Shown here one piece after another: positions 14,027 to 17,000 of a stretch of DNA of 64,000 nucleotides. The notes under the pieces were generated by a model. That model was not told where the DNA came from. It did not search any database and was given only the letters and a program-made list of their open reading frames with translations. Source of the DNA: Chondrilla cf. caribensis (lineage: Eukaryota > Porifera > Demospongiae > Chondrillida > Chondrillidae); contig OZ026554.1 of NCBI GenBank assembly GCA_964020155.1, positions 5,681,416 to 5,745,415 of the forward strand. The letters are read 5' to 3'. How positions within the stretch are numbered: the first letter of the stretch is position 1; each line of letters starts with the position of its first letter. Made by a program: the position numbers and the translations under genes.

Positions 14027-17000
14027 ATGAGATCTAGTTCACTGCAGCTCATTATAAGAACACTTGGATCGAAGAGAAGCTATTCATACAGCGCATCTGA
14101 GGTAGAAGCTCAGTGGCAAAGGATATGGAAGACACAACGTAGTAAAGTCATTCTGACCTTCCTCGTGGTGGCATGTTGTGAGATGCATAATATACTTGCT
14201 TAATGTTGTAATATTCCCTCCTCCAGGTGAATGGCGGTAAGGACAAGTTCTACGTCCTCTCGATGTTCCCTTATCCGTCAGGAAGACTACACATGGGTCA
14301 TGTTAGAGTGTACACCATCAGTGATACTTTGGCACACTACCACAGGATGTGTGGGCGTGGCGTGCTCCATCCGATGGGATGGGACGCCTTTGGTCTACCA
14401 GCAGAGAATGCAGCCATTGAACGGGATCTAGATCCTGAGACATGGACCAAACAGTGAGCAATCCACAGAACCTACATTGAGCTGCTTGCTGTGTGCACAT
14501 AGAATATTGTGGACCGGCATGAAAACATTTGAAGAATCAATTTTTCCTCCTGGGTCAATTTTGGCCAGATTCTTCCTGCAAGAATTATCCAATTCTCTTG
14601 CATTTCAAAATTGTCCTAGGTCAAAATTGTGCAGCAACACTCTATCCTATAGGATAAATTACTTCTGTGAAATTTTGACCAAGGACAATTTTAGATGGGT
14701 CGATTTGCCATGACAGACATGTTTTGGTTTCAGAAACATTTCTCACATGAGACGGCAGCTCAGTGTGCTTGGTTTCCAGTTTGACTGGGATAAGGTGTGT
14801 ATGCGCACAAACCTCTGTCTGTGATAACATCGGTCACCATGCCTCCCTCCCCACTCAGGAGCTGTCCACATGTTGCCCTGGTTACTACAAGTGGACTCAG
14901 TGGCTGTTCTTGAAGCTACATGAACATGGACTTGCTTACAAGAAGAAAGCTCTGGTCAACTGGGATCCAGTGGACCACACTGTCCTGGCTAACGAACAGG
15001 TGTCAGTGTTGTCATGGTAATGTAAGTGGGCTGTGATACTTTGATTGTCACGGCAGGTGGACGACAGTGGGCGCTCTTGGAGGTCGGGAGCCAAGGTGCA
15101 GCAGAGGTGCCTTGAGCAATGGTTCTTCCGGATCACTGACTATTGTGAGGATCTTCTGAAGGGATTGGAGGACCTCAACTGGCCCAAAAAAGTGAAAACA
15201 ATGCAAGAGAATTGGATAGGAAAGTCTAAAGGAGCATACTTTGACTTTCCATTGGAGGTTTGCGTAGTCGTGCATGTCACATGGTATCACATGATGTCAC
15301 ATGATGTCACATGATGTCACATTCACTTCTTGTCAGCATGACCTTGGTTCTGTTCGTGTGTTCACCACAAAACCAGAAACAATTTATGGTGTGAGCTACC
15401 TTGCGCTGTCCCCAGATCACGAGGTGTTACAAAGACTCGAGGTATGGGAAGTTGAGAGCACTACTCCACACACAACTGGTGCTGGTTAGGTTAGAGTGTG
15501 TACTCTGCAGGTTGCACCGGACATAAAAGACAAGATCAAGTATACATTGTCCACTACCACTGGGGACAAGTCCAAGCTAGGTATACAGCTAGTGTTCGCT
15601 GTACCCACCCATCACACGCCCACCACAACACCATGTCATCCCTCCTCCCTCCGTCCTGTCCTCCAGGGGTTGAGATCAACCTACAAGCAACTCATCCGTT
15701 GTCACAAGAGAGGGTCCGGGTGTTTGTCTCCAACTATGTCATCAGTGACTACGGGACGAAGGCTGTGATGGGGGTGCCTGCCCACGATGAGAGGGATAGG
15801 GACTTTGCAACAGAGTTTAATCTCCCTGTGATCCAGGTAGTCAATGACGATGAGGTTCTTGTCAACTCACACAAATTTAACGGATTGAGTGTGGAAAGTG
15901 GGCGAAATAAAGTGGTGGAGGTTGCCAAGGTACGTGTGTGTTGTGTGGTGGGACTATATGACAGTGTCGTGATAGTATCGTTGCCATAGCAACTGGGAGT
16001 TGGTGGAGAGATGGTACAGTACAAGCTACGTGATTGGTTGGTATCCAGGCAACGATACTGGGGAGCACCCATCCCAGTGATTTATTGTGACACATGTGGG
16101 ATGTCCCCTTTATCAACCGACTCCCTCCCAGTCTGGCTCCCTCCTGCATCCACTGCTGGGATCAAAAGTGGTCTCAATTCCTATTCAAACTGGAAATCCG
16201 TTCAATGTTCAAAGTAATGTCTCCAACCTGTTATGACCTGACAGAGCAGCGGTGTTTAGAGTACTGTCTCCACTAGGTGCGGCAATATGGCCACCAGAGA
16301 AACAGACACAATGGACACTTTTGTGGACTCCTCGTGGTATTTTCTGAGGTTTCTTGACCCTTCAAATGCTGAGGAACCATTTGGTGTGGACACAGCAAAG
16401 AGGTGGATGCCGGTCAACATCTATGTGGGTGGAGTTGAGCATGGTGAGTAATGTCACATGATATCACATGCTTTGGATATATTATGTATATACATCACAT
16501 GCCCTATGCAGCCATCCTTCACCTGCTGTATGCATCACATGCCCTATGCAGCCATCCTTCACCTGCTGTATGCATCACATGCCCTATGCAGCCATCCTCC
16601 ACCTGCTGTATGCATCACATGTCCTATGCAGCCATCCTCCACCTGCTGTATACATCACATGCCCTATGCAGCCATCCTCCACCTGCTGTATACATCACAT
16701 GTCCTATGCAGCCATCCTCCACCTGCTGTATGCATCACATGCCCTATGCAGCCATCCTCCACCTGCTGTATACATCACATGCCCTATGCAGCCATCCTCC
16801 ACCTGCTGTATGCATCACATGTCCTATGCAGCCATCCTCCACCTGCTGTATACATCACATGTCCTATGCAGCCATCCTCCACCTGCTGTATGCATCACAT
16901 GCCCCATGCAGCCATCCTCCACCTGCTGTATGCATCACATGCCCTATGCAGCCATCCTCCACCTGCTGTATGCACGGTTTATCACACACTTCTTGTACAA

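Follow-up and report, generated by a model that had tools for sequence, protein, structure and literature searches.

A minisatellite of twelve splice acceptors at an intron-exon junction of LARS2 in Chondrilla cf. caribensis: a probable case of tolerance

The LARS2 Gene and Its Surroundings

The stretch of DNA analyzed here, 64 kb in length and referred to below as the window, carries on its plus strand a gene for the mitochondrial-type leucyl-tRNA synthetase LARS2, which can be followed from exon 2 to its stop codon (14227-18388) and is interrupted over this span by 16 GT-AG introns. Exon 1 may begin at the ATG at 14027. From exon 2 onward the gene model is intact, with 811 open codons, and its product matches TIGR00396 leuS_bact (E 1.1e-292 over residues 4-810) as well as solved chains of bacterial LeuRS (best E 9e-196), which bears out the identity that the original prediction had assigned to the gene. 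All 12 genome matches of a 605-residue query fall within one locus, and protein and DNA searches of the genome found no second copy, elsewhere, of LARS2 or of the array described below. Fourteen of the 16 introns counted from exon 2 measure 57-86 nt, one measures 280 nt, and one, the intron that holds the array, 508 nt. A 10-bp repeat (ATGTCACATG) is found at 15274-15322, in a different LARS2 intron from the array.

LARS2 is adjoined by a gene for a riboflavin transporter, SLC52A, on the minus strand, with which it forms a divergent pair. The first conserved-frame ATG of SLC52A is at 13984, so that the two start codons would be about 42 bp apart if LARS2 indeed starts at 14027. The transporter is 93, 68, and 56% identical to proteins in ENA and 30-35% identical to named animal proteins (Actinia, Pecten, Lingula, fishes, and others), matches by which the host is most likely an animal.

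A Minisatellite Across the Splice Junction

The 508-nt intron (16444-16951, plus strand, as are all LARS2 features given here) separates an exon at 16277-16443, which in the gene model and the alignment ends in ...YVGGVEH plus a G, from an exon of 98 nt at 16952-17049 in the gene model, the first 23 nt of which lie within the array. TRF reports this array as a minisatellite at 16489-16974 with a period of 40 bp, 12.1 copies, 96% matches and a score of 888; TCACATG repeats 5' of the array open the intron. According to the unit table, the unit crosses the 3' splice junction and joins the end of the intron to 17-23 exon bases, and the intron thus presents twelve near-identical acceptors at end positions 16511+40k, the last at 16951. 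The original prediction had described just such a series of twelve acceptors at 40-bp steps, and the copy number from TRF and the unit table agree with it. As to the limits that it gave for the array, the repeat is there, and its end lies at 16974 rather than at 16975. Its account of the units as equivalent, each with tatgcag followed by about 23 exon bases, is accurate for 11 of the 12 copies, which carry TATGCAG; copy 11 (16911) reads CATGCAG, and exon positions 8 and 21 vary from unit to unit. The terminal ATGCAG is present in 12 of 12 copies, meaning that the splice signals are retained throughout the array, and the first 23 exon bases after each acceptor are identical except at these two positions.

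Variation within the array is confined to four of the 40 columns across the 12 units: a C/T column ten bases 5' of the exon; a T/C column seven bases 5' of the exon, where copy 11 alone differs; exon position 8 (T/C), with T in copies 1-2; and exon position 21 (G/A), with A in copies 4, 5, 7, and 9. These columns combine into 6 distinct types whose variants are interspersed, and two units differ on average at 1.44 positions per 40 bp. Such low divergence is what internal homogenization produces, though a recent expansion would look similar. The number of types and their interspersed order suggest an array old enough for its units to have mutated and been shuffled, over a period in which the coding sequence remained intact. 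Subtracting the 11 extra units from the intron leaves 68 nt, which is a normal length for LARS2, and the first (most upstream) acceptor copy, at 16504-16511, would close precisely this 68-nt intron.

Two classes of elements that resemble such an arrangement in part can be set aside. NAGNAG tandem acceptors are alternative acceptors of one intron with AGs that lie 3 nt apart; the LARS2 array likewise offers alternative acceptors of one intron, but its 40-bp steps and its single AG per unit rule this class out. Introners, or mobile introns, leave related copies in many genes of a genome. In the 137-Mb, 37-contig genome, the one reported DNA match of 16444-16975, from a search that passes over very common words, is the stretch itself, and this explanation was ruled out on that basis.

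Consequences of Acceptor Choice

The last copy (16944-16951), acceptor 12, is the only one from which the conserved LARS2 protein is obtained, as both the unit table and the alignment indicate. Acceptors 9, 6, and 3 (16831, 16711, and 16591) remain in frame and would add 40, 80, and 120 residues, with the frame open to the stop at 18386, whereas the remaining eight upstream acceptors shift the frame and lead to a stop at 17016 or 17039; acceptor 1 (16511) is among these, with its stop at 17039. The original prediction had anticipated both outcomes, the open frames at 3, 6, and 9 units upstream and the early stops elsewhere, and neither needs amendment.

The junction at 16951/16952 is itself placed by the conserved LARS2 protein (model and alignment). 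The motif AILHLLY, which the array encodes, does not vary among the six sequences aligned, namely the model plus five homologs; one of the latter is a JGI protein, 73% identical, and all five lack an insert at the array junction. The LeuRS of T. thermophilus has V for I in this motif and likewise carries no insert. Inserts from the in-frame upstream acceptors would therefore interrupt a conserved stretch of the enzyme.

Local Signals at the Twelve Acceptors

If the last acceptor is the one used, local sequence offers little to explain it. With a weight matrix derived from 16 introns of LARS2, whose 16 sites include the real acceptor, scores for the twelve acceptors range over 6.48-7.09; the last, at 6.48, shares the bottom value with six others. 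Of the short introns predicted, 42 with those of LARS2 included, 30 score below the acceptors of the array. All twelve are good sites and the last is no better than the rest; its own strength was accordingly rejected as a reason for its use. In this respect the original prediction, which had suggested that the array might be tolerated through a strongly preferred last acceptor, stands in part: tolerance is the likelier reading, but a preference founded on the strength of that site is not seen.

Motifs resembling branch sites lean weakly toward the other end of the array, against use of the last acceptor. There is an ATTAT 27 nt 5' of acceptor 1 and a TTCAC 30 nt 5' of acceptors 2 and 3, while in the later units the sole such motif is ATCAC at 14 nt, which is common to all twelve. 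These motifs are a weak guide: of 42 predicted introns, 16 contain yUnAy and 3 contain CTRAY.

Predicted RNA structure is similarly uninformative with respect to the last copy. Each unit can be folded into a 7-bp hairpin that includes its AG. At a span of 150, the A and the G of every acceptor are predicted to be paired at 0.9 or above, with the exception of the A of acceptor 10 (0.39); at a span of 600, pairing is lower at acceptor 1 (0.77-0.87) and at acceptor 10 (A, 0.69), which places acceptor 1 among the least paired once long-range pairing is permitted. The last acceptor is paired like the others, so RNA structure does not favor it, and structure was rejected as its selector given that pairing covers nearly all of the AGs, the last included. 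Taken by itself, the intron has a better predicted fold than 100 shuffled versions (z -3.9), which is what a repeated hairpin would give.

In human genes, competing splice sites are reported to pair with the partner closest to them, doing so across the intron if it is short and across the exon if the intron is long (PMC9225289). Applied to the short introns seen here, this rule implies that acceptor 1, with its 68-nt intron, should win; the conservation of the LARS2 protein means, however, that acceptor 1 cannot be the sole winner. Our gene finder chose 16952 as the exon start, but it is a crude, self-trained program whose training set included LARS2, and for that reason its choice is not independent evidence.

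Other Arrays in the Window

A second array in the window spans a junction of opposite polarity to that of LARS2, and is confirmed by homology, as read from the genomic sequence. It lies on the plus strand at 47595-48153 in the gene for PDCD6 (ALG-2) and holds 17 copies of a donor, CAG/GTGTGTAC. TRF gives its span as 47607-48153; we moved the start to 47595 to take in 15 exon bases. Its donors run from 47610 to 48139, separated by one step of 37 bp, six of 34 bp, and nine of 32 bp, and the final 15 exon bases (TGTGTTGTCATCCAG) are repeated ahead of donor 2. When donor 1 is joined to the acceptor at 48213, the spliced protein aligns without gaps across the junction to PDCD6/ALG-2 (best chain 5jjg_A, E 1e-73), whereas each of donors 2-17 costs the protein its conserved C-terminal part, with a stop following 21-42 codons beyond the exon end. 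Donor 1 is consequently the only one of the 17 that gives the conserved protein. The DNA of this array resembles many TG-rich repeats at roughly 66-75%, which is uninformative. The two arrays, one at a 3' and one at a 5' splice junction, thus have in common that each depends on whichever copy yields the shortest exon.

Two further arrays on the plus strand are candidates for spanning a junction, albeit without homology support at the junction itself. The array at 36198-36281 (26 bp, 3.2 copies) coincides with a putative donor of a WDR24-like gene at an exon edge that is only predicted; the WDR24 match is weak (E 9e-5) and falls in a different part of the predicted protein from the array junction. 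The array at 51030-51992 (17 bp, 56.6 copies) starts at the predicted exon end, a putative donor, of a coiled-coil-like gene, and an in-frame alternative donor 15 nt upstream would render it purely intronic.

Counting these, 4 of 18 arrays in the 64-kb window straddle predicted exon edges, against 1.9 expected (P(>=4) 0.11). The count covers arrays with a period of at least 10, a length of at least 80 bp, and at least 2.5 copies, and the expectation comes from placing one unit per array at random on 296 crude exon edges in 5000 trials. It was made by eye and excludes predicted exons of less than 50 nt inside arrays; the LARS2 array holds some of these on the minus strand, the PDCD6 array three, and 40119-40397 one. 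Arrays show no enrichment at exon edges. A count near chance means that junction arrays are not visibly depleted either, and fits random array birth followed by tolerance, but the edges are crude and the number is small. In 20 other stretches (L003-L022; 200 kb, partly N), no convincing junction arrays were found by eye; there, 3 of 31 arrays extend to the edge of a predicted exon (exon score >4), and all three appear by eye to be TG/CA-type repeats.

Several other repeats in the region were observed. An array at 39214-39652, outside the four counted above, consists of 16.9 copies of 26 bp at 100% identity, probably a very recent expansion; it directly follows a donor, AAA/GTACGT, and its units are slightly like the end of the preceding exon. 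At 44283-44382 a 27-bp repeat (9 codons, 3.7 copies) lies within a predicted minus-strand coding exon and is likely a coding repeat. Lastly, a 29-bp array of about 1.2 kb in total crosses the end of the window (63116-64000, continuing at 3116-4300 of stretch L002) and is followed, by eye, by an acceptor-like site and open sequence.

Relation to Known Repeats at Exon Boundaries

Tandem repeats across intron-exon boundaries have been named mirages in the amphioxus Adh gene and are also described in globin genes (PMC3087553). They affect both 3' and 5' boundaries, and haplotypes of BflGb6 with 6 and 3 units are reported; RT-PCR reportedly pointed to normal splicing, and the repeat in Adh is somatically unstable (PMC3087553). 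Further amphioxus mirages occur in PGBD5 and troponin C (PMC3902484). In these cases (Adh3, BflGb6, BflGb9, troponin C, and PGBD5), a minisatellite-like unit spans the boundary and many copies keep the AG or GT, much as observed here. BflGb6 repeats the intron end and exon start, as the LARS2 array does, though with 6 and 3 copies in its two haplotypes as opposed to 12 in LARS2 and 17 in PDCD6. The mirages of these two papers are all cephalochordate (PMC3087553; PMC3902484), whereas the present case comes from a 137-Mb genome in which LARS2 introns are mostly 57-86 nt; among the papers listed by our searches of open-licence literature, none showed a mirage outside cephalochordates. The LARS2 array is a minisatellite whose unit spans a boundary of a real gene, whose splice signals are retained, and whose units are homogenized; as judged from genomic sequence, it belongs to the mirage class. 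That it leaves normal splicing undisturbed, as mirages are said to do, is argued for by the conservation of the protein. The class is already known but rarely described, and the LARS2 case adds a member.

Two other systems are related at a greater distance. Human segmental duplications contain internal tandem repeats, with units of 30 bp on average, at exon-intron boundaries, where they may alter splicing (PMC2812944); these occur in duplicated primate genes with transcripts, whereas LARS2 was found at one locus. In potato RdRp, a tandem duplication over a 3' boundary created a new intron (PMC4974935). There too the duplicated segment spans an intron-exon boundary and brings an acceptor with it, but the case comprises one duplication and a new intron, as opposed to 12 copies within one enlarged intron in LARS2.

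Interpretation and Alternatives

We consider it probable that the LARS2 array is a mirage that the gene tolerates, with splicing directed to the exon-proximal acceptor, 16951. Such an array would have begun when the 3' junction of an intron of normal length (68 nt) was duplicated in tandem, the founder duplication probably arising through the near-repeat TATACA (intron)/TATGCA (exon), which would have lain 40 bp apart before expansion. The resulting minisatellite would then have expanded and been homogenized to 12 units, leaving 11 extra junctions enclosed in a single enlarged intron. In the functional mRNA, the donor at 16444 would be joined to the last acceptor, the one nearest the exon core. 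Since no local sequence distinguishes 16951, position would have to decide. As in exon definition, the spliceosome may match this acceptor to the donor at the other end of the same exon, which at 98 nt is the shortest that any of the twelve copies would give; should the last copy be used, its advantage would lie in that short exon. Upstream acceptors, where used at all, would mostly give rise to frameshifted transcripts fit for nonsense-mediated decay, and the array would be tolerated rather than regulatory.

It is unlikely, in our estimation, that the array instead serves as a copy-number-dependent attenuator, wherein upstream acceptors compete with the last, the frameshifted LARS2 pre-mRNA is destroyed, and the number of units sets the output of the enzyme. 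Local signals do leave room for some attenuating effect, which the array may have: the twelve acceptors differ little in strength and score above most of the predicted short introns, the branch-site-like motifs lean toward acceptors 1-3, eight of the 11 upstream acceptors lead to early stops, and a single LARS2 locus was found. However, we saw no sign of regulation or of selection on copy number, and the suggestion in the original prediction of a length-dependent splicing regulator accordingly drew no backing from anything observed. The conservation of the gene across the junction also sets a ceiling on how much product could be lost in this manner, and published mirages are described as leaving splicing undisturbed (PMC3087553; PMC3902484).

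Tandem arrays are commonly misassembled, and one could suppose that the array was created in assembly, or that the sequenced individual alone carries it as a private allele. We hold this to be very unlikely considering that the array is shorter than 500 bp, that its units differ in an interspersed order, that an assembly in 37 contigs suggests long reads, and that a second array of the same kind lies nearby in PDCD6. A very recent or rare allele could, for its part, look identical to a tolerated array.

We give still less credence to longer LARS2 isoforms, produced from the in-frame acceptors at 16831, 16711, and 16591 with their 40, 80, or 120 additional residues. These frames are open as far as the normal stop, but the array is open in all three plus-strand frames, and the openness of the extensions consequently carries no information. 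An insert would, moreover, split AILHLLY, the same in 6 of 6 aligned sequences (V for I in T. thermophilus), and the array peptide has no evident relative, a search over 8 candidates having given one weak and uninformative LeuRS match (E 1.9). Most improbable of all is an early intron gain, in which exonic sequence from a unit is turned into an additional exon flanked by two introns; every unit does have an acceptor and a GT (GCT/GTATGC), reminiscent of the 3'-boundary duplication of potato RdRp (PMC4974935), but this GT scores 1.5 against 2.4-7.7 for the 16 LARS2 donors of the matrix, a 16-nt micro-exon would shift the frame, and the protein needs no new intron where the model has one.

Implications

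Taken as a tolerated mirage, the LARS2 array is of interest in that serial, near-identical splice sites within one natural transcript make position separable from site strength. The LARS2 and PDCD6 arrays, of opposite polarity, both need the shortest-exon copy where the nearest-partner rule picks the other end. It is possible, if doubtful, that arrays arise actively in this genome and that minisatellites on junctions are a common by-product of this (in 64 kb, two are confirmed and there may be as many as four), tolerated via cross-exon pairing despite introns of about 65 nt, and that copy number could tune the output of LARS2 and PDCD6; were this so, the arrays would amount to natural serial-competition assays. 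Both arrays also provide material for studying the growth and gain of introns by tandem duplication, and mirages, so far described in amphioxus in the literature searched, would extend to another animal.
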